The notes under the pieces: generated by a model | Databases searched by the model: none | What the model was told of the DNA's origin: nothing | What the model saw: the letters and a program-made list of their open reading frames with translations, nothing else | Virus record (IMG/VR): IMGVR_UViG_3300006037_000005 | Span: 1 to 64,000 of that record | Length of the DNA stretch: 64,000 nucleotides | Origin: a virus | Reading direction: 5' to 3' (one strand) | Program-made: the position numbers and the translations under genes | In this document: in pieces, positions 26,955-46,703 of the stretch | Numbering within the stretch: the first letter of the stretch is position 1 | Layout of the letters: each line of letters opens with the position of its first letter

Positions 26955-27003
26955 TGCAAAAATCGTGCCAAATTCATTATGACATGACAAATCGTCATGT
27001 CAT
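26955..27003 (-). promoter_or_regulatory. Sigma-54-like promoter with palindromic operator (copy 1)
   Basis: On the - strand TTGGCACGATTTTTGCA (26971 to 26955) matches the -24/-12 consensus with 10 bp between GG and GC. Just upstream is a perfect inverted repeat ATGACATGAC-5bp-GTCATGTCAT (26979-27003). It precedes the TGA-interrupted gene. Confidence 0.65.
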
Positions 27004-27270
27004 ATTATTTGCTTTATTTTCAAACTCATCTAGCAATATTTTAACTTCTTTTGCTCTTTCATAATTTTCTTGGTCGATATAAGTATTGTAAATGCTTTTG
27101 AGATTATAGATGAGTACTTCATCAGTGCGTTTATGGTTCTCCAAAATATATTCTCTTATTTGGTTCGTTGTTTTGCGTTCTATATAAAAATAGAAACACA
27201 TAAAAATTATCTGAATGATCCCAATGATGACCATTAACATTATCATCTGATCCAAATATTGTGGCTTCAT
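26995..27270 (-). CDS. Small membrane-anchored helical protein (91 aa)
   Basis: N-terminal membrane helix (residues 10-29, MLMVIIGIIQIIFMCFYFYI) and a C-terminal helical hairpin ending ENYERAKEVKILLDEFE, like a UVR-type helix pair. Its last residues and stop lie inside the operator palindrome at 26979-27003. Confidence 0.72.
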   Translation of the reverse strand: MKPQYLDQMIMLMVIIGIIQIIFMCFYFYIERKTTNQIREYILENHKRTDEVLIYNLKSIYNTYIDQENYERAKEVKILLDEFENKANNMT

Positions 27271-27776
27271 CTATAATAAATTTTAGTTGGTAATGTTGAT
27301 TTAAATTGTTGAAGTGATTTTTCATAAGATACAATATCGGTGTCAATTGCATATTTTGCAAACATAATAACCTCTTCATCACCCAAACTGTGGGTTTCGG
27401 AGTGCTGTTGATAACCTTTTACAAATCCTTGCTTTCTATCTCCTTCTAAATCAAAAGGGTTACTACTTCTGTAGGAATCTATTTCCGTTCCATAATGAGA
27501 TTCCGCTAAATATTCTGCATAATTAACCACTTGTGGACATTGTAGTGATGTGTCGGTGGTAGCTAACACAGGTCTACCAAGATAACCATCTGAAATATGT
27601 TTGGTATATTTAACAATTCTTCTGGAGTTTTCTTCAACCGAATAATACACCTCATCAGTATCCATATATAAATCTTCGTGTGTGTAATAATCCTCACCAT
27701 CAATCGTAATTTTTTCACACATTTCAAATTTATTGGTGTCTATGTGTATTAGTTTATACTGTTTTGTTGTTCCCAT
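27267..27776 (-). CDS. Conserved Bacteroidetes-phage protein (169 aa)
   Basis: Carries the blocks VLATTDTSL, then YAEYLAESHYGTEI, then a polar HSETHSLGDEEVIMFAKY tail. This order resembles the phage family also represented at 53643-54269 (IIATTDNEL and a C-terminal SRDEVEILLFNLAEHY). Function is unknown. Confidence 0.75.
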   Translation of the reverse strand: MGTTKQYKLIHIDTNKFEMCEKITIDGEDYYTHEDLYMDTDEVYYSVEENSRRIVKYTKHISDGYLGRPVLATTDTSLQCPQVVNYAEYLAESHYGTEIDSYRSSNPFDLEGDRKQGFVKGYQQHSETHSLGDEEVIMFAKYAIDTDIVSYEKSLQQFKSTLPTKIYYR

Positions 27777-28330
27777 AATATAATTTCAACGTTATTATTA
27801 ATTTCCAAGGCTCTTGACCATTTACTAACATCATTACAATAACCAATTATTTTATGGTCAGGATTTGTGTGTTTACAAAGTTTTTCGAACCACCCAAAAT
27901 CTGTGAAAGTGGTGGAAAATGTAATATATTTTGCTCTATTGAAATATTCTGAAATTTCAATATCGCTTCTGAGAAAGAAATTGCTGATAACAGTTATATC
28001 TTGGTTTCCGAATCTTTCTTCTAGATATTTTACCCAATTTGGATCTGCTTTCTTGTCATTCTCACAAATGACTATTTCTGAGAATTTATCTATTGGGAAA
28101 TGCACACCATATTTTTCAACAATATTATTGTAATCGAGATTGTGGCAACCAATCAATTTGGCTCTGTACAATAGATCACCTTTATCTACAACAGCGTGTA
28201 GACCACCTTGAACCTCGTTGTGAAACAGAGTTTCTTTCATTCTTTTGTTGAATTCATCTGATATTGGTGAGTCCTTGGTGCAAACCAAAAACCAATTACC
28301 ATGTCCAGCAATTTTTATGTATCTGTTCAT
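27749..28330 (-). CDS. Hypothetical protein (193 aa)
   Basis: A soluble alpha/beta protein with no motif I can name. It overlaps the downstream start by 28 bp. First gene after a 144-bp gap that should contain its promoter. Confidence 0.75.
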   Translation of the reverse strand: MNRYIKIAGHGNWFLVCTKDSPISDEFNKRMKETLFHNEVQGGLHAVVDKGDLLYRAKLIGCHNLDYNNIVEKYGVHFPIDKFSEIVICENDKKADPNWVKYLEERFGNQDITVISNFFLRSDIEISEYFNRAKYITFSTTFTDFGWFEKLCKHTNPDHKIIGYCNDVSKWSRALEINNNVEIILWEQQNSIN

Positions 28331-28474
28331 AATTTTCTCTTTGTATTATTTTTAAGATATCTTTTTTCCATTTTTGCTTAGTTATAACAGAAAGGTTTAT
28401 CAATATAATATCTACAAAAATATATTACATCTATTCTAGCCACATATATGCGTATTTTTTCTTTATGTAAATAT

Positions 28475-28939
28475 TTAGGACTTTTGTTGTGGTGCTTTTC
28501 CATTTGGTATTAATTTTAAAGCCTCATACAAGCCATCCTCTAATGCTTCTTCATATATTTCTTTCGCTACACAAATCTTCAATTTTCTTTCACCATAATA
28601 AACAAGAGAAATATATTTTATCCCATCTTGTTTGATACATTCTACATCAATATTATGAATTTCTCTTAACCATTTTTGAAGCAGAGATTGAGTTGACCTT
28701 GTGATATAATGACCAAGATCCATATTGTTATTAGTTCTATTATAATATCTTCTGAAGTAGACCAATGCCTTATCACTATGACCAGTCTCACAATCCTTAG
28801 AATATTCCAAACATGCTTTTTTATAAAAATCCATCTCGATATTGTTGTTATACAGATCAAAGACAACATTACAAGGCAAATTAAATCCTTTTTCTTGAGC
28901 CAATTCAGCAGTCTGAAAATTTATGCGAGTATCTTCCAT
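28475..28939 (-). CDS. Conserved Bacteroidetes-phage protein (154 aa)
   Basis: TAELAQEKGFNLPC at the N-terminus, then ITRSTQSLLQKWLREIHNI, then YEEALEDGLYEALKLIP. These three blocks define a very common uncharacterised family in Bacteroidetes phages. No enzyme motif. Confidence 0.85.
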   Translation of the reverse strand: MEDTRINFQTAELAQEKGFNLPCNVVFDLYNNNIEMDFYKKACLEYSKDCETGHSDKALVYFRRYYNRTNNNMDLGHYITRSTQSLLQKWLREIHNIDVECIKQDGIKYISLVYYGERKLKICVAKEIYEEALEDGLYEALKLIPNGKAPQQKS

Positions 28940-28951
28940 GTTTTTAAAATT

Positions 28952-29239
28952 CTATATCTCCGTTACAAAATCGTCAAAATCACCGTCTCTTGGTTGTATT
29001 CTATCTAAAATATAAAAAGAAGCTACTGCTAGACCATCATCATCTTGACTATCCCAATTACATATCTCTAAATAATAATTTTCTGTCAAAATATATTCTG
29101 TTGGATCAAAATCTGTGTGAACAAATGTTACTCTGGCTAAATATTCGCCAAATCCACCAGAATATTCGAAGGAAGTAGCACCTCCGAATTCGTAAGATAG
29201 TTTTTCCTCTATTTCTTTTTTATTAATGTTGTTTTCCAT
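28952..29239 (-). CDS. Hypothetical protein (95 aa)
   Basis: Acidic, beta-rich small protein; no recognised motif. It lies 12 bp upstream of the 154-aa gene in the same - block. Confidence 0.7.
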   Translation of the reverse strand: MENNINKKEIEEKLSYEFGGATSFEYSGGFGEYLARVTFVHTDFDPTEYILTENYYLEICNWDSQDDDGLAVASFYILDRIQPRDGDFDDFVTEI

Positions 29240-29279
29240 TATTTTCCTAATATTCTTAAATCAAAAATCGAATTTTACA

Positions 29280-29531
29280 TCAAAAAATCCTCTTCCCAAA
29301 TAAGTTTGCTAGACATATCTTCATAAAAGTCTCTTCCCAAATAAGTTTGCTAGACATATCTTCATAAAAGTCTCCACCAGGAAAGAATTCTTTAAATCTA
29401 GTAGGTATCCGTAATCTCTCGTCTTTCGGTGGAATCTTATAATGTTTTTGAGATTGCCTCAATTCCTCTTGTAATTCAAAAATCTCTTTTCCAATTATCT
29501 CTGGTCTTCTAACTGTTTGTGTTGAATCCAT
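29280..29531 (-). CDS. Hypothetical protein with C-terminus rewritten by a tandem duplication
   Basis: 83 aa. The N-terminal part is well formed (RPEIIGKEIFELQEELRQS, then PPKDERLRIPTRFKEFFPGG). Near the 3' end a 41-bp sequence is duplicated. Because 41 is not a multiple of three, the second copy is read in another frame, giving a tail TFMKICLANLFGKRIF. Without the duplication the protein would end SSKLIWEEDFLM. Confidence 0.75.
   Translation of the reverse strand: MDSTQTVRRPEIIGKEIFELQEELRQSQKHYKIPPKDERLRIPTRFKEFFPGGDFYEDMSSKLIWEETFMKICLANLFGKRIF
29290..29371. repeat. Exact 41-bp tandem duplication
   Basis: Two identical 41-bp units, 29290-29330 and 29331-29371, with no mismatch, so the event is recent. 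They lie in the 3' end of the 29280-29531 gene. Confidence 0.95.
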
Positions 29532-29556
29532 ATTTTGTTTTTAAATATTATTTTAA

Positions 29557-29835
29557 TTACCATTCAGTGACAACTTTCAATTCTTTCATGAATTCAAGAA
29601 TAGCTTTATCTTTTACACCATCTGTTAATGGCACGTCAGACAATTTTATTTTTGAAGATTTGTGGAGAGATCCTCTGTTGTAAAATGCATCGTTTGTTGC
29701 ATACCAAACTTTTGTTGATTTGGATTTTCTATATTGGCTTGAATATTCTTCCAATATTATACGAAATCCATGTACTGAAAACGAAAAAAACTCTCTTGTT
29801 AAATCCCCTGTTGATATTATTACTTCTATTCTCAT
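29557..29835 (-). CDS. Hypothetical protein (92 aa) below a sigma-54-like promoter
   Basis: A basic beta-rich protein, start at 29835 about 35 bp below the -12 element. It contains YNRGSLHKSS, encoded by the 24-nt block shared exactly with the SEC-C protein gene. Function is unknown. Confidence 0.72.
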   Translation of the reverse strand: MRIEVIISTGDLTREFFSFSVHGFRIILEEYSSQYRKSKSTKVWYATNDAFYNRGSLHKSSKIKLSDVPLTDGVKDKAILEFMKELKVVTEW

Positions 29836-29869
29836 AACTTTGTTTTTAAAATGTTCTTATAATAAATAT

Positions 29870-29935
29870 TGCAAAAATCGTGCCAAATTTATTTTGTCAT
29901 ATTCTAAATGTCAGTCTGTCATGTCATAGTGTCAT
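29870..29935 (-). promoter_or_regulatory. Sigma-54-like promoter with operator repeats (copy 2)
   Basis: - strand TTGGCACGATTTTTGCA from 29886 to 29870, identical to copy 1. Upstream come TGTCAT, ATGTCA, TGTCATGTCA and GTCAT repeats (29895-29935), running up to the stop of the next gene. Confidence 0.65.
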
Positions 29936-30519
29936 GGTATGTAAAGTATTGTTGGATTATCCTTGTGGAAATCAATATTATCAAATAAGGCATCTCTTCT
30001 GAATTCCAACAGATTGAATGGTTTCGAAATCAAATGGTAACCATTTTTAGTCTCGATTATTGCTATATCTTTCTTACCAACTGGCTCTACACTTTCTATA
30101 TGCTTTTTGATAATTTCAACAAATTCTAGATTCTTTTCATCGATATCAATTATCCATTTTTTGTTAGATTCATTTGAATAAGTACCACAAACACTTTCAT
30201 AAGCCTTTCTTATTGACTTAAAATCTTTATTCATGATCTGATCTGTAATTTTTCTCAAGGTGTGGAAACCAATTTTCTCGAAAGATCTTTTATTAAGATT
30301 TATGCATGCTCTTGCATTATGAAAATCGCAAAGAGATTTTATTTCTGGGAATTTTAGATTCAGATATTCAATAGAACTTACATAGTAGGTTTTTATACAA
30401 GCAGAATTTGAACCAAGATCTTTGTGTTCTTTCTTGCGTTTTATGATTTGAAGATGGTAAAAATCATCTTCTGATTCGAAATTCAACAAATCTGATATTT
30501 GTTCTAAATTGTTTACCAT
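29932..30519 (-). CDS. Conserved phage protein, primase-like features uncertain (195 aa)
   Basis: Starts at the ATG at 30519 (MVNNLEQISDLLNFES); a TTG 14 codons earlier also opens the frame. Blocks FYHLQIIKRKKEHKDLG, IKTYYVSSIEYL, FHNARACINLNKRSF and KKWIIDIDEKN match an uncharacterised family in large phages. The NARACINLN and WIIDID strands recall archaeo-eukaryotic primase folds, but no full catalytic triad is evident to me. Confidence 0.75.
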   Translation of the reverse strand: MVNNLEQISDLLNFESEDDFYHLQIIKRKKEHKDLGSNSACIKTYYVSSIEYLNLKFPEIKSLCDFHNARACINLNKRSFEKIGFHTLRKITDQIMNKDFKSIRKAYESVCGTYSNESNKKWIIDIDEKNLEFVEIIKKHIESVEPVGKKDIAIIETKNGYHLISKPFNLLEFRRDALFDNIDFHKDNPTILYIP

Positions 30520-30569
30520 ATTTTCTATATTACAAAGTGGTTGTATTGTTTCATAAATCAATCAAAAAC

Positions 30570-30605
30570 AGTTTTGGCATCACATATATATGTGATGCCA
30601 AAACT
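30570..30605 (-). terminator. 36-bp perfect palindrome, probable terminator
   Basis: Arms AGTTTTGGCATCACATAT and its complement with no spacer, followed on the - strand by GTTTTTG. It lies downstream of the 30639 gene and upstream of the 29932-30519 gene. It may also be a binding site. Confidence 0.65.
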
Positions 30606-30638
30606 CTATAAATTATTTCAAGATGCCTATTTAGATAT

Positions 30639-31040
30639 CTATGAATCCAAAGCCTTTAATTGCTCATCTATTTCAGCTAAAGACAATTTTCCAATTTCTT
30701 CTGTCTGTTTTTTGGCTCTAAGAGCAAGTAATTCCTGTCTTTTTTCTTCTTTGTTTGCTTTTTCTTTTTGTTTTTTCTCGTTTTCTTCTATTTCATCGAG
30801 TAAAGAAGAAATTATATTTAAACGAAGTTCAACCAGTTTTTGTTCTGAAGATTTTGATTCAGTCTGTCTTCTTGTTGATTTACCAAAAGAATCTTTCTGA
30901 ATAGTAAGATTCTCTTCATAAGAGATTAATTCTTCCTTTAGAGATTGTGAGATTCTCATAGAATATAATTGCTCTATGGATATCTGACCTCTAAAATCAA
31001 ATCTTAATTGCTGACGTACAGCTTGTTCGAAATTATTCAT
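30639..31040 (-). CDS. Coiled-coil protein (133 aa)
   Basis: Highly charged Glu/Lys/Gln helices, with EENEKKQKEKANKEEKRQE near residues 85-105. It starts 18 bp after the 701-aa gene. Possibly a structural or partner protein of that gene; function unknown. Confidence 0.75.
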   Translation of the reverse strand: MNNFEQAVRQQLRFDFRGQISIEQLYSMRISQSLKEELISYEENLTIQKDSFGKSTRRQTESKSSEQKLVELRLNIISSLLDEIEENEKKQKEKANKEEKRQELLALRAKKQTEEIGKLSLAEIDEQLKALDS

Positions 31041-31058
31041 TTTATTGGAAATTTATTG

Positions 31059-33164
31059 TTAAAAATTTATTTTCAAAATTCTTTGGTGAGATCCTTTAAC
31101 TTTTACTATTAAAGAATCTCTCACCGTACAATTGAATCCTATATCAGATAATTGTTTATCTGATGGTTCTACCATTTTGTAATTACCAAGCATATCGATG
31201 GCTTTTCTACTACCCATCAATTCACTATTTAATTGGTCAATATGGAATGCTCTCATTGGATCTTGAGACTTGCAATCTTGTATCATAAAGAAATATTCTT
31301 TAGTTCCAATATTGTTGTCACCCCAATGGTTTGGTGAAGAACATACCAAATTAACTTTATGGAATTGATTTGTTTCTATATTCCACAGATTTTTACTAGA
31401 ATTTGTGGTGCATGGCAATTTGTGTTCTATGTTAAATTTACCGTTTTTGAGTGTTATGTCTGCCACTGGTATTTTACCAACCACTGGCTTATTATATTCA
31501 TAGCAGAACAATTCACCTTCGAACTCTATTTCAAATTTGAAACCTTTCGACGAATTGCGACCACTGAATTGATTGACATAAAAAGAATAAACACCATCCT
31601 TCATTTCATTGATACTTCTGAAATATATGTTCTCAACAGCCAATTTTCCTTTTGGGTTTGTGTTATCTAAATCAAGTTGTCCTCCACAATTAGAAAAAAG
31701 ATTACTAGAATCTTTTCTAAAACCAGTATTGTATCCAATAAATTGATTGGTTGATTGTTTGCACCATACATCAAGATCAGAAGAATCAGAACCAGATTCA
31801 TTCCATATCATTGATGCTCTTAGTACACCGTCTATGTTACCACCAGCGGTTTTTACAGCCTCTTTTATCATAGATTTTCCACTGAGATTACCATTGTAGG
31901 TCCAACTGAAAGTGTTATCCCATTTAAACAGATTTTTGGCTGTTTTATTTTTCGCTGTAAACAATGATACTAGATTACCTTCAAATCTATTCTCCATGAA
32001 GACCTCAATAGAGTTTGCCACAGGAAGAATGTCTGATAAAAATTTGTCTATATGGATTTCTTCCACTTTGTCAAATTCTGAACGTTTGTGTCTATTGTTT
32101 GATGATGTCACCACACCTGCCTTGCCAAATAATCCAACTGGTTTTTCTTTTGAAGCATCAATATTGGAATGTTTAATCTCTGAAACATCTATATCGTCTA
32201 TATTAGCAAATATTCTTTCAAAAGAATCTCCATAACCAAGATCTGTGATGGTTTTCTCTGCCTCCTCTATCATAGATTTTGTTACTGGTGATTTTGCTTT
32301 ATTGTAGTTGGCCGGATCAACCCTTATATTGAAGTCTTTGCAAACTTTATTAAGTTCTTTACCTTCAACCAATTCTATACAAGTAGTACCTATGAGTTCA
32401 TTAGCAAAACGGGCAAAAGGTGTCGATTTAAAATTGTTCCACAACCAATTACCTTGCTGATTTACAGATATTTTATTGAACTCTTTTTTGAGTTTTATTA
32501 CATCTAATACTTTGTTTAGGTACATATCTCCTTTCAACAAAGATCCTTGTTGTATCAAATCTCTCACAAGTTCCAAAGTATCAAGAGGAATCCCCATTGT
32601 TTTTCCGAACAACTGTCTTGTGGTGTTTAATTCACCAATGATAGATTCACAACTTTCTCTTTTGAAATTTATGAAATTGTTCGGTATGAACACATGGAAA
32701 TGGTTAAAGGTATAAGAATAATCTATCTTTTTACCTTTGGCTTCCTCCTCTGTTCTATAAATTTTAAATGTTTTCTCTTTACCCAAACAATAGACACCAG
32801 TATTTGTCTTATGTAGATCGATTGGAGATTCTACATAAACTGAATCTATTTCTGAATTTTTTATTCTTTCACGAACATTAATTATTGAATTTTTATATTC
32901 ACAATCTGAAATATCAAAATCAAACATTGTTACGATCTCATTGTCAACTATGGCTACAATATTAGCATATCTTTCAAAGAAATGCCTATCATTGTCACAA
33001 TTGTGTACAGAATTCACTCTCCATAAAGGATGAATATCAAAAGAATTCATGTAAATTTCCCACAAATACCCCCCAGGAACATCAGTCTTAAACAGATTCC
33101 CTGTCTTTGTGAGTACGTGGAATTGCTCCTGCATTAGTCTATTTAACTCTAAAAAATTGCTCAT
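31059..33164 (-). CDS. Large protein with DUF2135/YfaP-like C-terminal region (701 aa)
   Basis: The N-terminal 400 residues are unrecognised. Around residues 450-600 it reads RASMIWNESGSDSSDLDVWC, then GGQLDLDNTNPKGKLAVENI, YSFYVNQFSGRNSSKGFKFE and VADITLKNGKF. This beta-sandwich pattern is what I associate with DUF2135/YfaP and similar phage proteins. The segment just before it (FKWDNTFSWTYNGNLSGKS) suggests a modular protein. No signal peptide. Its size is striking among early genes and its function is unknown. Confidence 0.82.
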   Translation of the reverse strand: MSNFLELNRLMQEQFHVLTKTGNLFKTDVPGGYLWEIYMNSFDIHPLWRVNSVHNCDNDRHFFERYANIVAIVDNEIVTMFDFDISDCEYKNSIINVRERIKNSEIDSVYVESPIDLHKTNTGVYCLGKEKTFKIYRTEEEAKGKKIDYSYTFNHFHVFIPNNFINFKRESCESIIGELNTTRQLFGKTMGIPLDTLELVRDLIQQGSLLKGDMYLNKVLDVIKLKKEFNKISVNQQGNWLWNNFKSTPFARFANELIGTTCIELVEGKELNKVCKDFNIRVDPANYNKAKSPVTKSMIEEAEKTITDLGYGDSFERIFANIDDIDVSEIKHSNIDASKEKPVGLFGKAGVVTSSNNRHKRSEFDKVEEIHIDKFLSDILPVANSIEVFMENRFEGNLVSLFTAKNKTAKNLFKWDNTFSWTYNGNLSGKSMIKEAVKTAGGNIDGVLRASMIWNESGSDSSDLDVWCKQSTNQFIGYNTGFRKDSSNLFSNCGGQLDLDNTNPKGKLAVENIYFRSINEMKDGVYSFYVNQFSGRNSSKGFKFEIEFEGELFCYEYNKPVVGKIPVADITLKNGKFNIEHKLPCTTNSSKNLWNIETNQFHKVNLVCSSPNHWGDNNIGTKEYFFMIQDCKSQDPMRAFHIDQLNSELMGSRKAIDMLGNYKMVEPSDKQLSDIGFNCTVRDSLIVKVKGSHQRILKINF

Positions 33165-33288
33165 CTTTCATCTCTTTTTATATTTTATTTTGTTATGATT
33201 CTCTGGTTTCCAAATTTACCCCAGTGGATATTTGATGTGTACCAAACAAAGAGAAATAGGGCGAGAAGAATCTTGGTGGTTTTATAAT

Positions 33289-33314
33289 TTTGTTATATTT
33301 TAAAATATAACAAA
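33289..33314. repeat. 26-bp perfect palindrome in a 200-bp gap
   Basis: Arms TTTGTTATATTTT and its complement, with no loop. The gap 33165-33364 holds no ORF I can support; this may be a terminator for the gene ending at 33365 on the other side or a promoter-linked operator for the 701-aa gene. Confidence 0.6.
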
Positions 33315-33364
33315 CAGTGTCGATTATAGAGAATATAGCGTAGAATTAATTGAAAATATATCAG

Positions 33365-33610
33365 TTAATACATATATGTATCCATAATTCTGTGTGTGGT
33401 TTTAAAAATCTCTTCGGAGATCACAAACGAAGTGACCATTATCTTACCTTTTAGAATTTTGATCACAGAATCGTCTTGATATATTTCATCTCCTCTTAAT
33501 AATCTTTTATATTCGATAAGATAAAAGAAACCGTTCTGTTCTTTATTGAAAAATTTCGTTATGGAAGTTCTTTTGTTTTTAGATTTTATGGTTCTAGTGA
33601 TTGCTTCCAT
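33365..33610 (-). CDS. Hypothetical protein (81 aa)
   Basis: A basic N-terminus (MEAITRTIKSKNKRTSITKFF) and an alpha/beta remainder. It follows the ABC-type ATPase gene by 6 bp. No family recognised. Confidence 0.68.
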   Translation of the reverse strand: MEAITRTIKSKNKRTSITKFFNKEQNGFFYLIEYKRLLRGDEIYQDDSVIKILKGKIMVTSFVISEEIFKTTHRIMDTYMY

Positions 33611-33616
33611 TGTTTT

Positions 33617-34477
33617 TCAAATTTTGTGTAAATTTAAAAATTCTGAACTCTTTAGCCATTTCTTATGTTCAAGACTATACACTTCTTTCTGACTTTCTAT
33701 AAGCGGTACACAATGGGTAGATATAAAAATTTGACAATCATTTGAAACAGCTTTATTTAAAACCTCTATTAATTTAAACTGATTCCTTGGTGACAGAGCC
33801 GATTCTGGTTCATCTAGAAATATTATACAGTCTTGTGCTTTCGACAAAACACCAACCGTGAAATCAACGAGGGTTTCTCCATGTGATCTAAAATGTGACA
33901 TCAAAGCATTGCCCACACCATATCCCTTTGATCCCCCACCTGGCGTTGTATAATTATCAATGCTTGTTGTTCTTGGATTCATTTTCTCTGTATCAAAATA
34001 GAAAGTGTTTATTTCCATTTTGGAGTATTCATCCTTTATCTTAACATCTAGAAATTCTTGGTGTTTTTGCAATCCTAATAACAGTGTTGATTTACCACAA
34101 CCTTGATCTCCAACAATGAGATTTATACCAGATTTTGGTTTTATCACGAATTTTTTATTGAAACATATACCTTTGGATACTGTTATTGATTCAATGTATG
34201 ATACACCAATAGAATCTTCCCTTGATAATCCAGATTCTATTCTTGATATTTTTTCGTCATAAGTTTCTTTCATAATCACAAATTTGACATTATTTTTTAA
34301 AAATTCTTCTCTTACCCATCTTGGTAAATTCTCTTTCGATCCAGATTTTATTTGGATCTGGAGTTGAGATAATGTTTTTCTATATCTAGCACAATGATCC
34401 CAAACAATTTGGTGGGCTTTTTGTGTTTTTGTCATTGGTTTATCTGACCACCATGTTCCGCAACTCGATTTACACAT
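33617..34477 (-). CDS. ABC-type/OLD-like AAA ATPase (286 aa)
   Basis: Residues 1-105 form an unrelated helical extension. The ATPase follows: Walker A NLIVGDQGCGKST, a signature-like GGGSKGYGVGNAL segment, Walker B CIIFLDEPESALSPRNQ, and H-loop IFISTHC. This is the single-domain SMC/RecF/OLD type of ATPase seen in DNA repair and defence proteins. No TOPRIM or nuclease is fused. A second ATG (34435) is possible. Function open. Confidence 0.82.
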   Translation of the reverse strand: MCKSSCGTWWSDKPMTKTQKAHQIVWDHCARYRKTLSQLQIQIKSGSKENLPRWVREEFLKNNVKFVIMKETYDEKISRIESGLSREDSIGVSYIESITVSKGICFNKKFVIKPKSGINLIVGDQGCGKSTLLLGLQKHQEFLDVKIKDEYSKMEINTFYFDTEKMNPRTTSIDNYTTPGGGSKGYGVGNALMSHFRSHGETLVDFTVGVLSKAQDCIIFLDEPESALSPRNQFKLIEVLNKAVSNDCQIFISTHCVPLIESQKEVYSLEHKKWLKSSEFLNLHKI

Positions 34478-34517
34478 AACGTAAGCAATAATTGCACCAG
34501 ATCCATCTTCATATTGT

Positions 34518-34566
34518 AATAGATGAAAATCTTATTATTTCACAAGTTATTAGATTTTCATCTATT
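34518..34566. repeat. 15-bp perfect inverted repeat (19-base loop)
   Basis: Arms AATAGATGAAAATCT and its complement. It lies in the 150-bp gap between the ATPase gene and the 34628 gene. There is no clear T-run, so it is either a weak terminator or an RNA processing hairpin. Confidence 0.55.
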
Positions 34567-34627
34567 ATACATTCAACCAATGCACCTATTCTGTATGGAT
34601 TGGGATTATTATTGTGTTGTGGTATTT

Positions 34628-39001: not shown

Positions 39002-39002
39002 A

Positions 39003-39119: not shown

Positions 39120-39211
39120 CCAGATTTGATCTATTGTATAATCCAGATTTGATCTATTGTATAATCCAGATTTGATCTATTGTATAATCCAGATTTGATC
39201 TATTGTATAAT
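39120..39211. repeat. Minisatellite, four 23-bp units
   Basis: Four exact tandem copies of CCAGATTTGATCTATTGTATAAT-type sequence in 92 bp. They overlap the stop of the zinc-ribbon gene, whose TAG lies in the first unit. Confidence 0.95.
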
Positions 39212-39511
39212 CTGAATATTATTGTAATATTCTAAAATATCTCTACTTACATATTTCAATATCTTATCTATGAATAAATTCAGAGTTTTGAGTGATTGTG
39301 GATATTCTTCGAAGATTTTTACTTCGTTGGTATCATCATCCATTTTATGGCATCCACAACAATAATGTTTGCCGTTCAATTCAAACCAACCACTGTCAAT
39401 AGAATTTTCTATAGCTGAATTCTTATCATCCCAAAAGGAATGTTCACCATCTTGGTATAATTCACCACAACGATTACATTTTACACCATAAAAAACTTCT
39501 GTTGTTACCAT
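39200..39511 (-). CDS. Zinc-ribbon protein (103 aa)
   Basis: CNRC near residue 12 and YCCGC near residue 50 form a four-Cys zinc site separated by a helical FWDDKNSAIENSIDSGW segment. This is a common small-protein layout in Bacteroidetes phages. The 3' end runs into the 23-bp minisatellite, which supplies the stop, so the protein is probably truncated. Confidence 0.78.
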   Translation of the reverse strand: MVTTEVFYGVKCNRCGELYQDGEHSFWDDKNSAIENSIDSGWFELNGKHYCCGCHKMDDDTNEVKIFEEYPQSLKTLNLFIDKILKYVSRDILEYYNNIQIIQ

Positions 39512-39966
39512 TATTTCATGCTTTTACCAAATGTTTCACCATTTGAAAATTTCAAGATTTTATATGCCTCATCATATGATAGTTTCAAACCACCAACAAA
39601 TACACCGAACTCATCAAAGCCAGTTATCATGTGTTCTGCTGATATGGTTTTTGATCCTCGACCTGTCGCCACTACCCATTCCCCTTTAAAAAGATTTGAA
39701 TCTGAATTTGTAAAAGGTATTGTTACTGTTGGGTTCAAAGATTCAATTTCGAAATAAAATATAGGTTTTTTAACAAAATTCGGGAATTCAATACCAATCA
39801 TATCACCATATGAAATATCCACAACAACTCCAATCTTACCCACTGTTTCATCCATGGATGAATCCCAAGATATAAAATTTTCAGATCTTTTGTGTATGAT
39901 TATGCTACTACCAACTGATATTTTATTTGAAATCAAAAATTTCTTGGTTGCTTCTTGTCTTGTCAT
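39511..39966 (-). CDS. Hypothetical beta-rich protein (151 aa)
   Basis: Starts MTRQEATKKFLIS. Two SH3-like stretches: VGKIGVVVDISYGDMIGIEF and LFKGEWVVATGRGSKTISAE, then FDEFGVFVGGLKLSYDEAY. Related in layout to the C-terminus of the 38075-39001 protein. Function unknown. Confidence 0.75.
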   Translation of the reverse strand: MTRQEATKKFLISNKISVGSSIIIHKRSENFISWDSSMDETVGKIGVVVDISYGDMIGIEFPNFVKKPIFYFEIESLNPTVTIPFTNSDSNLFKGEWVVATGRGSKTISAEHMITGFDEFGVFVGGLKLSYDEAYKILKFSNGETFGKSMK

Positions 39967-39991
39967 TCTGAAATTTTATTTAGCATAATAT

Positions 39992-40174
39992 TTATTCAAT
40001 CATTTTTAAAATTCTACACCATTCCTCGGTTTTGATTTCCATATCCTTAATATACTCTTTTTCTCTGCTGATATCTTTTATGCTTTTACAATTGGTTAAT
40101 GTGGTCCATATTATATCCAATCTATCTTTTGGTATGATAAGATTACCATCACAGTTTTGCTCACAATCATACAA
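39992..40174 (-). CDS. Hypothetical protein (60 aa, TTG start)
   Basis: The frame reads through YDCEQNCDGNLIIPKDRLDI with no nearby ATG; TTG at 40174 is the first start-like codon, and the frame stays open about 7 codons further up. Two overlapping frames compete here (a 57-codon ORF starts at 40284), so a frameshift is possible. Confidence 0.5.
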   Translation of the reverse strand: MYDCEQNCDGNLIIPKDRLDIIWTTLTNCKSIKDISREKEYIKDMEIKTEEWCRILKMIE

Positions 40175-40201
40175 TTGGCGATATCTGCTATCTGACTAAA
40201 C

Positions 40202-40249
40202 ACTTCTGAAAGATATAGAAAATGCCAAATCACAATATCTTTCAGAAGT
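40202..40249. repeat. 15-bp perfect inverted repeat (18-base loop)
   Basis: Arms ACTTCTGAAAGATAT and its complement, between the 56-aa gene and the 39992 gene. Same type as the hairpin at 34518. No T-run. Confidence 0.6.
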
Positions 40250-40270
40250 ATCGATTGTATCTTCAGAATT

Positions 40271-40441
40271 TTATTTTCTTCCATTTTCGATCCTGCTTAA
40301 AACATCTTTTATTTCTTTGTGCATGGGCTGTGGTTCGTCACAGCCAGATTCTATATCGGATAATCCTTGATCGAAATACTTCAAAATTAGTAATATTTCA
40401 ATTAGAAGATCTTCATCTATCTTTACACTCTTTTTTGCCAT
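40271..40441 (-). CDS. Small helical protein (56 aa)
   Basis: MAKKSVKIDEDLLIEILLIL starts the ORF at 40441, directly after the AAA+ gene's stop region, which it overlaps by a base or two. The helical layout resembles the 59-aa protein at 49164-49343 (MARKKHKLELTDLELISLV). Function unknown. Confidence 0.65.
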   Translation of the reverse strand: MAKKSVKIDEDLLIEILLILKYFDQGLSDIESGCDEPQPMHKEIKDVLSRIENGRK

Positions 40442-40442
40442 A

Positions 40443-42056
40443 TTAATCAGAATCTTTGTTTATGTATACATAACCCTCAATATCCTTTAGCATATCTAAG
40501 TCTATTGGTTGATCACCATAATATTTTTTGACAAGTTTACAGATATTTTTAATAGATCTACCTGTAATGTTTTTGAAATGTTCTGTTATCAATGGTAATT
40601 GACCATTTTTTATCTCAATATCATAATTATCCAATAAAACATTCCATAACTTTGTGAGTTCTTCATCTTTGGGAACACCATATTCAACAATTGCTGTTGC
40701 TCTTGATAAAATCGCATCATCAACCGAACTTGCTCTGTTGGTGGTCATAAACAATAGACCATTGTAATATTCAAGTGTTCTAAGAAATGTACAGACTACA
40801 GCATTTCTGTGCAGATCTTGATCTCTTGATTGTATATAAACATCGGCTTCATCAATAAGTAAGACAGCACCCCATCTTGATGCTCTTTTTAGAACTGCTT
40901 CAAGATTTTTCTCAAGATCATCTATCTTGATACCAAGCTGATCTGATTGTACTTTATATAGAGGTTTTTCCATTATTTCAGAATAGATTTCTGCAGATAA
41001 TGTTTTACCAGTACCAGGTATACCTTTACAGATGATAATAGTTCCACCTGTTTTACCAGACACAATATCTTCGAAATTATCTTTTGTGTTCAAAGTTAAT
41101 ATCTCTATTAACTTATTGATGTTTGGTGGTAAAACAAGTTTTTCTTTTAACTTTGGGTTATAGACATATTCTTCAAGAGATTCAGTGTGTATCCAAAAAT
41201 CTCTGTGTTTGCTCAAAGAAAACATATAAACAAAAGGATGAGTTGGAACTATATGATCTACATCTGTCTCAATGTCTTTATCCCAAAATACTGAATTAAC
41301 ATAATTGTTCGGTATTTTGTTTGTGATAGTATCCATATTGTTAACAAAATTCATATAAGAACCATCACCAACTGTTTTGTTTATACCACCCCATCTATCA
41401 TATTGTATTATAATTTTGGATTTATATTGTTTACCTATGGATTCAACTATATTCTTATATTTTCCATATTGATTAAAGAAAATCTTTCGGATTTCGGGGT
41501 TTTCTTTATAATAACCTTTTGATTCCAAAATTTCTGATACTGTTTTACCAGATACAATATCAGAAGAATAAAATGTGATATCAGTCTTTCTCTCCTCCAC
41601 GCAAGCAATATGTCTCAATGATATTTGAACATATGCTGGACTTTCTTTTTCCGCTGGTTTGTATATTATGCTATTTACATAATAAGGAAGTGGTATGTCT
41701 ACATCATTTATGTTTTGGATTTTATATAGATAATAGTCCAAAGAATCATTTTTAATATATTGTCTTAACGCATCTCTTAACGCATCAAGTCTTTTGGGTA
41801 CTACCTTATCTACATTTGATTTAATGGACTTCAACATTGATATCTGTTGTAATATTGAATTGAATCCAGATTCGGTAGCAACATTGGCTTTTGCCATTTC
41901 CTGCAATGCATCCATAAAATCATCATCGAGTTTATCAGAATTGATAGATACTACATTGCTATCATTGTTCCATGATATACAGCCATCTAAATATCTTGAT
42001 TGAAATCCTTTTGATTTCAATTCTTTTATAGTCTTTATTGTCAATTTTAATTCCAT
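40443..42056 (-). CDS. AAA+ ATPase (537 aa)
   Basis: Classical AAA+ core in the C-terminal half: Walker A KGIPGTGKTLSAE, Walker B AVLLIDEADVYIQSRD, sensor 1 LLFMTTNRASSVD, and arginine-finger region DAILSRATA. It resembles the FtsH/BCS1-type AAA domain. The first 300 residues are a unique domain likely to select substrate. It may unfold or remodel host or phage proteins. No protease motif is fused. Confidence 0.88.
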   Translation of the reverse strand: MELKLTIKTIKELKSKGFQSRYLDGCISWNNDSNVVSINSDKLDDDFMDALQEMAKANVATESGFNSILQQISMLKSIKSNVDKVVPKRLDALRDALRQYIKNDSLDYYLYKIQNINDVDIPLPYYVNSIIYKPAEKESPAYVQISLRHIACVEERKTDITFYSSDIVSGKTVSEILESKGYYKENPEIRKIFFNQYGKYKNIVESIGKQYKSKIIIQYDRWGGINKTVGDGSYMNFVNNMDTITNKIPNNYVNSVFWDKDIETDVDHIVPTHPFVYMFSLSKHRDFWIHTESLEEYVYNPKLKEKLVLPPNINKLIEILTLNTKDNFEDIVSGKTGGTIIICKGIPGTGKTLSAEIYSEIMEKPLYKVQSDQLGIKIDDLEKNLEAVLKRASRWGAVLLIDEADVYIQSRDQDLHRNAVVCTFLRTLEYYNGLLFMTTNRASSVDDAILSRATAIVEYGVPKDEELTKLWNVLLDNYDIEIKNGQLPLITEHFKNITGRSIKNICKLVKKYYGDQPIDLDMLKDIEGYVYINKDSD

Positions 42057-42062
42057 CTTTAT

Positions 42063-42536
42063 TTAAATTATTCTTTTAGTTTTACAATTGAATACTGGTG
42101 CTGTATTTTTAATATTGGTCCAAACACCAGTGAATTCACCATTTCTGAAATATAATAGTTGAATTCTCGGATAATAATTTCCAGTGATATGTGTATAATA
42201 TAGTCTGCCTCTGTACATAACAATGAAACAATGGGGGATATTATTAACAGTACGAGTTGGAATATTTCTACCTACGATATATTTTTCTTTTTCATCACCG
42301 AAATTATCAAGTTTTTTATATTCTACATCCTCAAAAACCCATTTATATTTGTTGTTTCTGAACCATTTATTGAGTTCTTCTGAATATTGATTCTTCTTTA
42401 TCCTTATTGGATTGGAAAAATTGAAACTTTCTTCAGATAAGATTTCAAGGTTGTAGCTTGATTTTAAAACGAAACCGCATCGATTTTTGATGACAACACC
42501 AATGTCTGTAATGAAATATTCCACTCTGTTTTCCAT
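42063..42536 (-). CDS. Hypothetical protein (157 aa) below a sigma-54-like promoter
   Basis: A basic, aromatic protein ending NTAPVFNCKTKRII, start at 42536, 36 bp below the -12 element. It precedes the AAA+ gene by 6 bp, so both are likely controlled by this promoter. No recognised domain. Confidence 0.73.
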   Translation of the reverse strand: MENRVEYFITDIGVVIKNRCGFVLKSSYNLEILSEESFNFSNPIRIKKNQYSEELNKWFRNNKYKWVFEDVEYKKLDNFGDEKEKYIVGRNIPTRTVNNIPHCFIVMYRGRLYYTHITGNYYPRIQLLYFRNGEFTGVWTNIKNTAPVFNCKTKRII

Positions 42537-42571
42537 AATTTTATTTTAAAATGTTCCTATAACAAGTATAG

Positions 42572-42615
42572 CAAAAACCGTGCCATATCAAAATTTGGTA
42601 TTATGACATATCATA
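42572..42615 (-). promoter_or_regulatory. Sigma-54-like promoter with operator (copy 3)
   Basis: - strand ATGGCACGGTTTTTGCT, 42588 to 42572, keeps GG/GC and the 10-bp spacing with two substitutions from copies 1, 2 and 4. Upstream an ATGACAT/ATCAT sequence (42603-42615) overlaps the stop of the 713-aa gene. Confidence 0.6.
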
Positions 42616-44752
42616 TGTTTATTTTAATATTATCTTTTTTAATAGAGTGTATATTTGCACAATTGTGGCATATATAAAACCCATAAGTTATCCCGTTCGG
42701 GCGTTCCTCAGATAATGGATCATACAATCTAAGATATGGGTGTATCTGATCAAGAAGACTATTTCCACTATATGCTTTATGTCCATAATATTTGTAGTTT
42801 TGATAATATGGTGGTAATTGTTTCCTATCAGTAAGATCAAGAAGCCACATAAAACCAGCATAATGCCTTATATTGATTTGGTATGTATGTTTGGCTTTAT
42901 TCTTTCCACAACACTCACATATATCAGCATCCATAAAGTTGTCTGATTTTCCAATACCAACGCCTCTATAAATATCCACACCTTCTTTTTTAGTTCTTCT
43001 ATTTATGATTATGGTCTCGCAATAATCACCATTAATACCATGTGGTGATATTAAATTTGTTACTGATTTGCATATCGAATTAAGTATCTTGTTGTATACA
43101 GTTTTTGAAGAAAATATCATTTTTTCGAATTCTTTTGTATCAGCATAGCTTCTGTTCTTTAGTTGCAATAGCAGTGGTTCTATTGTGTCTACAAATCTGT
43201 TATCTAAAATCAACCATTCAGACAATGATTCAAGATTATCATTTGTGGCAAGCCAATTGGCATCATACATGGGGTTAGACATAATTTCATTATACGATGC
43301 TTTTTCAAGAGATTTATAATTTTTGTTTAAATCGAGACTATTGAGTGTTTCCATAATCTCGTTGAATCTATTTTTATTTTTATCGTTCCAATATTCCATC
43401 TTTGTATTATCATTAAGTAGGATGTTTTCACCAGACAACAATTTGTTGTTAATAAATTTCTTTGCTGTGGTCATTCCTGTTGATATATTGTTATTATCTA
43501 TCGATAAGAAATTTATGATTTCATTTGATAATAACAATATGAAAGCTTTGTTGCTATCGGATAGGGAATTTATATCATACTTAATAAAAATTGGATTTAT
43601 AAAGATAAATTCATCTTTATCCCATCTTACTATAACCTCCCCATTTTTCTTTATTGTACCATAATTTGGTGTATCACTATCAAAGAAATATCTTTCTTTC
43701 CTATCAACATGTATTGATGAGAAATCAACACCTAAAGATGTCAGATATTCTGAGATTTTCTTTTTTGTTATAATTTCAGATGTCTTATGATAAGTCCCAC
43801 TTTTGTGGTTTTTTCTATATAAATCAAATTCTTCCCTAACTTCTTTTAAGATATCATATTTTATAATCTTATTCTTTATTATTTGATTTTGTTGTATTGC
43901 CAATTCTTCTATATTTTCAAATATTTCATATGGCAAATCACAATTTTCTATTTTATCATCGTAATTTCTCCATATTGAAGCCCTCTCCATCCTAAGATGT
44001 GGTTGTCTAGGATTATCAAAATGTATTTGGTCTGATACTATCCATATTGTATCACCTTTATGAATAGTGAACACGAAACTCGATAGTATCGGATTTATAT
44101 TTGACAATTTACCAAATAATGTTATAAATATTTTATCAGAATCGGCTTTTTTAATGAATTCTTTTTGTTTAGACAAAAAATCGAGCCAGCTGTTTATATC
44201 AGATGATATACCTATCTCTGGATAGAAAACATATTTGTCTGATATAAATATTTTGTCTTGACCACCATGGTGCAAATATGTTTTAAAGAATTGTTTAGAA
44301 AAAACCATTTTATTCAATTTTAGAATATCTTGTGGTTTAAACGAAAAATTATCATCAAAATTGAACCCCATGGATTTTATCTGATTCATCCTTGGTATAA
44401 AATAAAACAATTCCCATTCACTATACAAATCTATTATTCCAGAGATTGTGTCTATTAATAGTTTGACCGATTCTATACTTTGTTTTGTGAAATCTTTTTT
44501 ATGTGGTAGGTTTATATAATCTGATAGACAATTATAATAAGAATTGGTTTTAAAGCAAATAGAATGGAGCTTTATTATGCAGATATCCGAATCAAATTCA
44601 TAAGAATTTTTAATATCAAACACTGTTTTTTTGATATTATCAGATGGTAAGATTCTCACAGATTTTGATTTATCTTCAGGAAAAGCATCTGTAAAATCAA
44701 ACTCAAATACCTGTTCTAGATTAGAAACAATCGATATTATTTTATCTTTCAT
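42611..44752 (-). CDS. Large unknown protein with C-terminal zinc cluster (713 aa)
   Basis: No domain recognised over 600 residues. Two parts stand out: PRQPHLRMERASIWRNYDD near residue 255 and a C-terminal region with CECCGKNKAKHTYQINIRH near 620 and YICHNCANIH near 695, which together could form a zinc site. The gene shares its start (ATGA overlap) with a helical 142-aa gene. Large, soluble, acidic/basic mixed. Function unknown. Confidence 0.8.
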   Translation of the reverse strand: MKDKIISIVSNLEQVFEFDFTDAFPEDKSKSVRILPSDNIKKTVFDIKNSYEFDSDICIIKLHSICFKTNSYYNCLSDYINLPHKKDFTKQSIESVKLLIDTISGIIDLYSEWELFYFIPRMNQIKSMGFNFDDNFSFKPQDILKLNKMVFSKQFFKTYLHHGGQDKIFISDKYVFYPEIGISSDINSWLDFLSKQKEFIKKADSDKIFITLFGKLSNINPILSSFVFTIHKGDTIWIVSDQIHFDNPRQPHLRMERASIWRNYDDKIENCDLPYEIFENIEELAIQQNQIIKNKIIKYDILKEVREEFDLYRKNHKSGTYHKTSEIITKKKISEYLTSLGVDFSSIHVDRKERYFFDSDTPNYGTIKKNGEVIVRWDKDEFIFINPIFIKYDINSLSDSNKAFILLLSNEIINFLSIDNNNISTGMTTAKKFINNKLLSGENILLNDNTKMEYWNDKNKNRFNEIMETLNSLDLNKNYKSLEKASYNEIMSNPMYDANWLATNDNLESLSEWLILDNRFVDTIEPLLLQLKNRSYADTKEFEKMIFSSKTVYNKILNSICKSVTNLISPHGINGDYCETIIINRRTKKEGVDIYRGVGIGKSDNFMDADICECCGKNKAKHTYQINIRHYAGFMWLLDLTDRKQLPPYYQNYKYYGHKAYSGNSLLDQIHPYLRLYDPLSEERPNGITYGFYICHNCANIHSIKKDNIKINI

Positions 44753-45177
44753 ATTTTTATTTTGTAGATGTCCCCTTCGAGTTCCTCTATCTGTGTTTTT
44801 GTTTTGTTGAAGTATGATTGTTTCACATCATGTTGATATTTCATTCTAAAAATATCAGATTTTTTGTAAAAATCTTCATTAATTCTTTCTATCAGAAATT
44901 CCACTATACCATCGAATTTACACAGATTTTCAAAATAGGCATCATTGTTTGGAATCTCTGTTTGCATCTCTGGCACAGATTTGTATGTTCTTTCCTTTAG
45001 TACTTTCATGTTCCAAATGAAAGATGTCGATAATATACCCAAAAGATATGAATCTTCTTTTGAAATTTTATTAATATTTTCCTTATGATATTGAGAAAAA
45101 TAATAGATTAAGATGTCTATTTCTTGCGAACAAAATGCAAGTAGAGGTTTTATGGTATCTTTGATCCTATTCTCCAT
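44749..45177 (-). CDS. Hypothetical helical protein (142 aa)
   Basis: Helical throughout, ending in a basic/acidic KTKTQIEELEGD segment. Overlaps the 713-aa gene by 4 bp, so a partner role is possible. Confidence 0.72.
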   Translation of the reverse strand: MENRIKDTIKPLLAFCSQEIDILIYYFSQYHKENINKISKEDSYLLGILSTSFIWNMKVLKERTYKSVPEMQTEIPNNDAYFENLCKFDGIVEFLIERINEDFYKKSDIFRMKYQHDVKQSYFNKTKTQIEELEGDIYKIKI

Positions 45178-45181
45178 ATTG

Positions 45182-45505
45182 TTATGGTATTATTATTTCT
45201 CCAAACACTGATTCTGCAAATTCTGGTGTCATAGAATGCATAAACAATTTTAATGCATCTCTTTTAATTTCATAGCCTTCAGATTTAAATGGTTCTGTTT
45301 CATTTACCCTATTTATGAAAGAAATAGATTTTAGTTCCATCTCTTTAAATACTGCAATAACGGATTCATTAGTTGTTGCTTTTCTTTGTGAGATTATATC
45401 TTTTGCCTCAATAACCATACCACTCAAAGCTATCAACAATCTTTGCTCTGCAGATTTATCTTGATCTTCCTCCTGATAAATTCTAAAATATTCTCTGGCT
45501 TTCAA
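45182..45505 (-). CDS. Hypothetical helical protein (107 aa, TTG start)
   Basis: The start is TTG overlapping the upstream TGA (TTGA), a coupled start; no in-frame ATG precedes the conserved-looking KAREYFRIYQEEDQDKS segment. Helical and acidic. Function unknown. Confidence 0.65.
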   Translation of the reverse strand: MKAREYFRIYQEEDQDKSAEQRLLIALSGMVIEAKDIISQRKATTNESVIAVFKEMELKSISFINRVNETEPFKSEGYEIKRDALKLFMHSMTPEFAESVFGEIIIP

Positions 45506-45780
45506 TTTATATGTATTAAAGATTGTATGATATTTTCGTCTTTATTGAACATCATGCCTGTGATAAATTTATCACAGGCATTTTCAACTTTATTCCAGTC
45601 AATGAATTTTGTTGGCATATTACACAAATGTTTATAACCAAGATTAACATCTTCTCTAGATCCTATAATTTCATATGTGTTATCTTTATGCATTGCTATC
45701 ACAAATAAACCATATCCGAAGAAAATTGGTGTATCCTCTTTTTTGGGATCGAATGCTACTAATATAAAAAGATTTTTCAT
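45502..45780 (-). CDS. Hypothetical protein (92 aa)
   Basis: Starts MKNLFILVAFDPKKEDTP, with IIGSREDVNLGYKHLCNM later. Alpha/beta; function unknown. Coupled to the downstream gene. Confidence 0.68.
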   Translation of the reverse strand: MKNLFILVAFDPKKEDTPIFFGYGLFVIAMHKDNTYEIIGSREDVNLGYKHLCNMPTKFIDWNKVENACDKFITGMMFNKDENIIQSLIHIN

Positions 45781-45785
45781 ATCTA

Positions 45786-46253
45786 TTAAAAACTTGGATC
45801 CCAGTATTCTTCTTGCATACCAAAAACTATATTTATCTTTGGATAGCTAGTTACAATTTTAGTAATACCATCTATTAATTTCAAGAAACCATTTTCATCA
45901 AAATGATCTGGATTATAAACATTTTCTTTTCCACAGAATTGTATAGATCTTGAGATTTGTCTCCAACAGCCTTGTCTGAATACCAATTCCACAGACTGTT
46001 CTTCAAGTTCCGAATAATCATATTGTTGACCACTATCAGTTAAACCAAGATTATCTATTCTTTTTGCTCTACATCTTCTGATGGTACATTTGGTTTGGTC
46101 TTTTGAAACTTCAACAACTTGATAAGCATGTCTATCTGTCCAAAATAGAACTGTTGCACCTTTACCAACTTCTGGCTTTGCTTGAGACCCAGACATCATA
46201 TGGTTCATTAAACTTCCTGTTTGTGAACCCAATTTTAGCATTGTATTTTTCAT
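45786..46253 (-). CDS. Widespread Bacteroidetes-phage protein (155 aa)
   Basis: VGKGATVLFWTDRHAYQVVE, then RRCRAKRIDNLGLTDSGQ, and the C-terminal GMQEEYWDPSF. This family, ending in a Y(W/Y)DxSF tail, is one of the most common uncharacterised proteins in Bacteroidetes phages, which supports the host assignment. It is transcribed from the sigma-54-like promoter 36 bp upstream. The role is unknown. Confidence 0.87.
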   Translation of the reverse strand: MKNTMLKLGSQTGSLMNHMMSGSQAKPEVGKGATVLFWTDRHAYQVVEVSKDQTKCTIRRCRAKRIDNLGLTDSGQQYDYSELEEQSVELVFRQGCWRQISRSIQFCGKENVYNPDHFDENGFLKLIDGITKIVTSYPKINIVFGMQEEYWDPSF

Positions 46254-46289
46254 AATTTTTTATTTTTAAAATGTTCTTATATAAATTAT

Positions 46290-46365
46290 TGCAAAAATCG
46301 TGCCAAATTTTTCAGATGGATTTTGTGACATGACAATTTGGCAGACATGACACCGTGACATGACA
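46290..46365 (-). promoter_or_regulatory. Sigma-54-like promoter with three operator repeats (copy 4)
   Basis: - strand TTGGCACGATTTTTGCA (46306 to 46290). Upstream on the + strand three direct repeats TGACATGACA at 46326, 46343 (first base A) and 46356. The repeats lie inside the 3' end of the upstream gene. Confidence 0.68.
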
Positions 46366-46611
46366 ATTTTTAATATGATTATAAAGTTTCTTTGTTCCAA
46401 CAAGACCCCATTGTTTATGTTTTGATATCAAAGCATTAAAGACAAGAAGTTTATCAATGGAATTCTGATCTTTTTGTTTCATTTCGCAATATTTGAAGAC
46501 TGGTGTTCTGTATAGACCATGTATCAATTCAAAATTATCTTTGATTAAAGTTATGTGTTCTTCTGTTAATTCAGATAGCTGTTTTTGGATTTCTTTTGTT
46601 GAATTTGCCAT
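46312..46611 (-). CDS. Hypothetical protein with operator-encoded C-terminus (99 aa)
   Basis: Helical N-terminus (MANSTKEIQKQLSELTEEH). The last residues, NCHVTVSCLPNCHVTKSI, are the translation of the TGACATGACA operator repeats, so the tail is imposed by regulatory DNA. Promoter copy 5 precedes the gene. Function unknown. Confidence 0.72.
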   Translation of the reverse strand: MANSTKEIQKQLSELTEEHITLIKDNFELIHGLYRTPVFKYCEMKQKDQNSIDKLLVFNALISKHKQWGLVGTKKLYNHIKNCHVTVSCLPNCHVTKSI

Positions 46612-46649
46612 AATTTTTGATTTTAAAAATGTTCTTATATAAAAATTAT

Positions 46650-46703
46650 TACAAAAATCGTACCAAAATTTAGGTGTGCTTCATCGGATGACAATCTGAC
46701 ATG
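46650..46703 (-). promoter_or_regulatory. Degenerate sigma-54-like promoter (copy 5)
   Basis: - strand TTGGTACGATTTTTGTA (46666 to 46650) differs from the perfect copies by two C-to-T changes, one in the critical -12 GC. ATGACA and TGACATG repeats lie at 46688-46703. It is probably weaker. Confidence 0.5.

Follow-up and report, generated by a model that had tools for sequence, protein, structure and literature searches.

Phage promoters are usually read by the housekeeping sigma factor of the host or by phage-encoded specificity factors. Promoters for sigma-54 (RpoN) are off by default and require an AAA+ activator, one of which, PspF of Escherichia coli, has a receiver-less architecture. Transcription from such promoters starts ~12 nt beyond the -12 GC. 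Here, we describe a set of modules, each combining a sigma-54-type -24/-12 box with TGACA/TGTCA sites upstream, in IMG/VR virus record IMGVR_UViG_3300006037_000005; the window, i.e. the whole stretch of DNA analysed, comprises the first 64 kb of this linear record of 126,598 bases, and all 126.6 kb, including the half beyond the window, were scanned. The closest described promoters are those of Bacteroidota chaperone genes. Mapping of 5' ends in Flavobacterium psychrophilum placed sigma-54 motifs (SM4) before groESL, dnaK, grpE-dnaJ, htpG, clpB and lon (PMC9723704), and predicted Bacteroidota sigma-54 regulons are enriched in chaperone COGs (PMC12316311); the available parts of these two articles hold no description of a TGACA operator. 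The modules described here resemble the F. psychrophilum promoters in their -24/-12 box, and a TGACA/TGTCA operator lies upstream of orthologous chaperone genes, whereas the phage copies precede phage genes whose products mostly match no family, and their operators are denser and more regular.

Three further systems offer partial parallels. The PB promoter of phiX174, with its sigma-32-like site, likewise answers the heat-shock system of the host (PMC3335065), but there a weak sigma-32 similarity overlaps a sigma-70 promoter, whereas here arrays of sigma-54 promoters have enhancer sites of their own. The sigma-54-dependent phage-shock response of E. coli (PMC3068692) also relies on a stress-linked AAA+ activator with a C-terminal helix-turn-helix, PspF, but its responding genes are E. 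coli's own, whereas here the sites are carried by phage genes. Phages 7-11 and phiEco32, with their sigma-like subunit (PMC8948821), similarly use a repeated motif to define a co-regulated set of phage genes, but bring their own recognition protein, whereas the present phage yielded no RpoN or activator and apparently borrows the system of its host. Borrowing of a host regulon by a phage is of a known kind; the sigma factor and the operator are unusual. The open-access literature, which is weak evidence here as most subscription journals and preprints lie outside it, yielded no report of a natural phage that carries arrays of sigma-54 promoters or copied heat-shock enhancers of its host, and the weak site of phiX174 is the nearest precedent (PMC3335065).

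The initial annotation of the window proposed five sigma-54-like boxes. The three given as perfect, at 26955, 29870 and 46290, match the pattern TTGGCACG-N4-TTGC(A/T) exactly and lie on the - strand as stated, and the copy at 46650 (two mismatches to the 17-mer) has indeed lost part of its -12 GC. The remaining copy is also real, but starts at 42570 rather than 42572 and carries three mismatches to the 17-mer, or one to the consensus TTGGCACGNNNNTTGCW. Five 17-mer matches compare with 0.25 expected in the window, and no shuffle reached five. Extending the search to the rest of the genome, as had been proposed, added two exact consensus boxes (93698 and 108387) and one weak copy (99727, TTGGAACTATTTTTGTA), so that the record holds five exact consensus boxes (26955, 29870, 46290, 93698 and 108387), compared with none in 100 first-order-Markov genomes with its dinucleotide composition. 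All eight boxes lie on the - strand and point in the same direction, with a constant GG-GC spacing of 10 bp, in line with the GG at -24 and GC at -12 of sigma-54 promoters. The -12 C is lost at 46650 and 99727, where GT stands instead, and these two copies may be weak promoters. The exact consensus, the fixed spacing, the place before start codons and the recurrence in other phages support the assignment as -24/-12 promoters that the initial annotation had made.

That annotation also reported TGACATGAC-type repeats at every copy. Exact TGACATGAC occurs eight times genome-wide in both orientations, each time no more than 100 bp upstream of a box, and is absent from the copies at 42570 and 46650, which have one and two half-sites, respectively. 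Reduced to TGACA/TGTCA half-sites, the repeats do accompany all eight boxes: the eight 100-bp upstream stretches contain 31 of them (random mean 1.6, maximum 14 in 20,000 draws), and TGACA/TGTCA is the top-ranked 5-mer of the modules (5.1 expected). Clusters of at least four half-sites per 60 bp occur four times in the genome against 0.13 expected, every one at a module. Neighbouring half-sites are spaced by 5 bp (eight times) or 8 bp (ten times) in 18 of 22 pairs, compared with 0 of 10 background pairs, and all genomic copies of TGWCA-N3-TGWCA (10/10) and TGWCATGWCA (8/8) fall inside the eight modules. Orientation is free, with direct repeats only at 29870 and 46290 and palindromes at 26955 and 108387, where a perfect inverted repeat with 19-bp arms made of TGACA half-sites lies upstream of the box (~108444–108484). 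The operators lie 8–90 bp upstream of the boxes, and 8–54 bp upstream in six modules. At least seven of the eight modules read as putative phage promoters of two-part design, a sigma-54 box plus repeated TGACA sites, with 99727 doubtful.

The same two-part design recurs in bacterial chromosomes. The phage (30% GC) encodes a terminase, a major head protein and a tail sheath; by tail sheath and terminase its nearest isolates are Flavobacterium phage MaF61 (38% and 30% identity, respectively), Tenacibaculum phages, Chryseobacterium phages and Prevotella Lak phages. Because these are all phages of Bacteroidota, we infer a host within this phylum. Scanning a single genome from each species for the box together with TGWCATGWC gave 51 hits, of which mainly those in Bacteroidota were read; the remainder, scattered over many phyla, look like chance matches. 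Genes behind the Bacteroidota hits include dnaK (L049), groES (L059, L071), hsp20 (L067) and a UspA gene (L062). In Bacteroidales, a box with a TGACA operator 9–46 bp upstream was found at dnaK (L049), groES (L059, L071), hsp20 (L074, L084) and UspA (L062), and further sigma-54 boxes in those genomes stand, as judged by eye, before hsp20, Clp-type ATPases, HtpG and an FKBP-like gene. Even the finer arrangement can coincide: TGACA-N3-TGACATGACA is common to phage module 29870 and host locus L044, and TGACATGACA-N3-TGTCA to phage module 99727 and host locus L062.

Upstream regions of groES, grpE and, as a control, recA from 30 Flavobacteriales genomes each were then compared independently of the box. 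TGACA/TGTCA density was 11.6 per kb upstream of groES and 8.5 upstream of grpE, and 0.53 upstream of recA, where there was no enrichment; it was the top-ranked 5-mer at both groES (86 copies, 15.8 expected) and grpE (60 copies, 11.9 expected). Of 100 Flavobacteriales genomes, 53 contained the longer pattern TGTCA-N3-TGTCA-N4..10-TGACA, nearly always as a single copy, with none for the reversed control pattern; in those that also belong to the groES set and in which groES was found, it lies by coordinates directly upstream of this gene. Two host loci with the module have other neighbours. In a Bacteroidales genome (L048:1548-3470), TGTCATGTCA-N3-TGACA and a sigma-54 box precede an operon of the cyclic oligonucleotide-based anti-phage signalling system (CBASS) type, with an oligonucleotide cyclase, an E2-like protein and a 2TM effector. 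In the Flavobacteriales locus L044 (match 4955-4987), TGACA-N3-TGACATGACA and the box stand 44 bp before the ATG of a gene that by eye resembles an IS1595-type transposase.

The initial annotation had suggested that an activator, perhaps phage encoded, reads TGACATGAC. Recognition of these sites is supported in the form of TGACA/TGTCA half-sites; a phage origin is not, and a phage-encoded activator or sigma-54 was rejected, as searches of the phage proteins with PF00158 (activator) and PF04552 (sigma-54 DNA-binding domain) found none, and a hidden Markov model (HMM) built from Bacteroidota activators matched nothing in this phage, nor in G067 or G068, two phages described below. An activator from the host is favoured because the phage shares its operator with the heat-shock genes of the host. 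One receiver-less type of ~410 amino acids (aa) was present in eight of nine Bacteroidota genomes tested (the copy in genome G004 partly read), with a C-terminal helix-turn-helix ending SERTLYRKIKEY or similar; in three of three Flavobacteriales genomes its gene shares the strand of groES and lies ~3 kb upstream of it. It is the sole strong PF00158 match in G004, which also has the dnaK module. F. psychrophilum has a gene for a sigma-54-dependent regulator, THC0290_0733, four locus tags from groES (PMC9723704), which by its position would be an ortholog of this activator. No half-site pairs with 5- or 8-bp spacing, as autoregulation might use, occur upstream of the activator genes. By association, this groES-linked protein is probably the reader of TGACA/TGTCA.

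Comparable boxes occur in other phages. One of them, G067 (110 kb), is distantly related to the present phage (28 BLAST matches, the majority 25–47% identical); its boxes (L233-L238) share the conserved flank TAAAGC-TTGGCACGATTTTTGCA-ATGTATATTATATAAA, and their upstream flank is unlike that of the present phage. In G068 (116 kb), which has only two protein matches to this phage, 21 boxes with no more than one mismatch lie on a single strand of the first 17.3 kb (1-17300, L239), the stretch that also contains seven of its eight TGACA clusters; TGGCACG and TTGC are constant in these boxes and the middle varies. Contigs G069 and G115 are of the same kind, the latter with 24 boxes in 30 kb, and this group, in which each contig has 10–24 boxes together with shared TGACA arrays of several sites, is the densest example found. 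An exact-box scan of viral contigs with no operator requirement gave 72 stretches (80 sites), most lacking TGACA upstream; the association of the box with TGACA does not extend to every phage, and many of these hits are probably chance or belong to other hosts. No box with one mismatch or fewer was present in eleven further phage records, most of them of Bacteroidota phages but including PAU and an uncultured huge phage, and the outside control T4 had a single one-mismatch box, so no cultured phage with such arrays was recognised.

We consider it likely that the modules act as sigma-54 promoters, mimicking those of Bacteroidota heat-shock genes and switched on by an enhancer-binding protein of the host. 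RNA polymerase carrying host RpoN would bind the -24/-12 box; an AAA+ enhancer-binding protein from the host (most probably the ~410-aa groES-linked one) would bind the half-sites and open the promoter; and infection stress, or basal activity of the activator, would induce the phage genes that follow the boxes. From the sequence comparisons we infer RpoN dependence, activator binding, induction by infection stress, early timing and the identity of the host.

Several observations weigh against this interpretation. The host examples L044–L071 were chosen by a search that demanded both box and operator, and it was therefore that the operator was tested with no box requirement at groES, grpE and recA. 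In those Flavobacteriales regions a box with at most two mismatches stands before only 6 of 30 groES and 8 of 30 grpE genes, with many groES boxes diverged at -12, and the compared promoters are homologous and phylogenetically non-independent, so the counts are not independent either. The groES repeat can fold into a hairpin followed by T's and may in part be a terminator; the grpE element (judged by eye) and the direct-repeat phage operators have no such structure. The operators are unusually near the promoter for enhancer-binding proteins, as the host sites are too. G067 has nine boxes with no operator clusters, which would be served either by remote enhancers or by another activator. Finally, the metagenome-assembled genome (MAG) G005 has no clear activator despite two modules, which we take as incompleteness of this MAG.

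Among the alternatives, the one that survives best, though we think it improbable, accepts the sigma-54 promoters and has TGACA read by another host activator or by a phage protein belonging to no described family. Our candidate was assigned solely by co-occurrence and neighbourhood, the gene behind box 108387 (107945-108331) encodes a protein with a helix-turn-helix-like C-terminus and weak sub-threshold matches, and the G067 boxes that lack TGACA allow that activators vary among phages; nevertheless, the AAA+ protein that a sigma-54 promoter requires was found in none of the phage proteins, and the operator is common to phage and host chaperone genes. A good deal less credible is that TGACA marks repressor or silencer sites that keep the promoters silent until the block is lifted by stress or by a phage protein. 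The proximity of the sites to the box in six modules, and perfect palindromes such as 26980–27002 and the repeat upstream of 108387, would suit a repressor, but a sigma-54 promoter is off by default and needs an activator, and each array of G068 appears to serve several promoters, as is expected of enhancers.

We regard as very unlikely that the box is a housekeeping promoter, either of the Bacteroidota -33/-7 type, an overlap that the initial annotation had named as an alternative, or of a TTGGCA-N17..20-TATAAT-like form. Most boxes are followed by a TATATAA-like sequence and 99727 contains TATTTTTG, yet TAnnTTTG is near only two of the eight modules, in differing registers, one of them being the doubtful 99727; the box-to-TATA spacing drifts from 17 to 20 while GG-GC is constant, and the G068 boxes keep TGGCACG and TTGC with a variable middle. 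With no TAnnTTTG at a fixed place, this explanation was rejected, except possibly for 99727, which may be a housekeeping promoter. That the repeats are terminators or repetitive DNA of no regulatory role has next to nothing to recommend it, as strong hairpins at 26955 (-18.6 kcal/mol) and 108387 (-31.6 kcal/mol; ~-10 for shuffles) and the groES hairpins with T's are offset by phage copies with no following T-run, by grpE, and by 29870 and 46290, whose pure direct repeats fold no better than shuffles and led us to reject it as a general explanation.

Positions of the modules and of the open reading frames (ORFs) behind them within the window are given in the table. The distance of ~36 bp to the ATG, originally ascribed to the three perfect copies, holds for 29870 and 46290 and, in addition, for 42570 and 46650. 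It does not apply to 26955, from which the next ORF with an ATG start (26464-26652, simple gene call) is 303 bp away. A long open frame behind that box has an apparent break in a run of six T's (26857–26862) shortly after a possible ATG, and this break (26840–26870 region) could be a pseudogene, a frameshift signal or an assembly error.

Sigma-54-type boxes, operators and downstream genes in the window.
Feature	Position	Strand	Remark
Sigma-54-type -24/-12 box, TTGGCACGATTTTTGCA	26955..26971	-	exact
Operator, TGACATGAC inverted repeat, 3 TGACA/TGTCA half-sites	26980..27002	-	
92-aa ORF, first after box 29870	29557..29835	-	no family match
Predicted start-site region and leader ATATTTATTATAAGAACATTTTAAAA	29844..29869	-	
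Sigma-54-type box	29870..29886	-	exact
Operator, 5 direct half-sites including TGACA-N3-TGACATGACA-N3-TGACA	29895..29934	-	
AAA ATPase (PF00004), possibly second gene of 42570 unit	40443..42056	-	low-score likeness to anti-phage IetA/IteA ATPases
157-aa ORF, first after box 42570	42063..42536	-	no family match
Sigma-54-type box ATGGCACGGTTTTTGCT	42570..42586	-	1 mismatch to consensus
Single TGTCA half-site	42604..42608	-	
155-aa ORF, first after box 46290	45786..46253	-	no family match
Predicted start-site region and leader ATAATTTATATAAGAACATTTTAAAA	46264..46289	-	
Sigma-54-type box	46290..46306	-	exact
99-aa ORF, first after box 46650	46312..46611	-	no family match
Operator, 5 TGTCA half-sites, all direct	46326..46365	-	
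Diverged sigma-54-type box TTGGTACGATTTTTGTA	46650..46666	-	-12 GC to GT
Operator TGTCA-N3-TGTCA, 8-bp spacing	46689..46701	-	

Most proteins encoded downstream of the boxes match no family. The median gene product is 135 aa in the box regions against 252 aa in the structural region, which would fit the early, host-modifying role that the initial annotation had suggested. Behind box 93698, a 499-aa protein (G000:92172-93671, equivalent to L010:9172-10671) with no Pfam or NCBIfam match has a signal-peptide-like start and a C-terminus that by eye resembles a type IX secretion sorting tail (YPNPS...GVYIVKI). A family of paralogous proteins with LTSLxGxP-like repeats (G000:95006-95557, 96005-96865, 99270-99659, 101770-102546 and 110916-111521) includes one whose gene stands behind the doubtful box 99727. 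Elsewhere, the phage encodes a GroES-like protein (G000:95581-95931, sub-threshold in NCBIfam), with no sigma-54 box found before the gene, and proteins resembling adenosine deaminase (58579-59571) and adenylosuccinate lyase (G000:108795-110168); the annotation of MaF61 also includes an adenylosuccinate synthetase and lyase. No IMG/VR relatives of the capsid protein and the phrog_1735 protein were confirmed.

A broader and more tentative idea, which we hold to be possible rather than probable, is that unrelated Bacteroidota phages have independently placed blocks of genes, with 8 to >20 promoters, under the host sigma-54 stress activator, so that the stress of infection is itself the switch, and that the CBASS operon at L048 uses the same switch, with phage and defence competing for one signal. 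Defence genes and phage genes may answer a single stress switch. If the proposed mechanism is true, phage gene expression would be tied to protein-folding stress in the host, and the phage modules could serve as they are to report on a little-studied Bacteroidota stress circuit. Comparing phage with host promoters suggests an operator, consisting of half-sites spaced by 5 or 8 bp, and a putative activator of the chaperone regulon in this phylum, whose chaperone genes rely on sigma-54.

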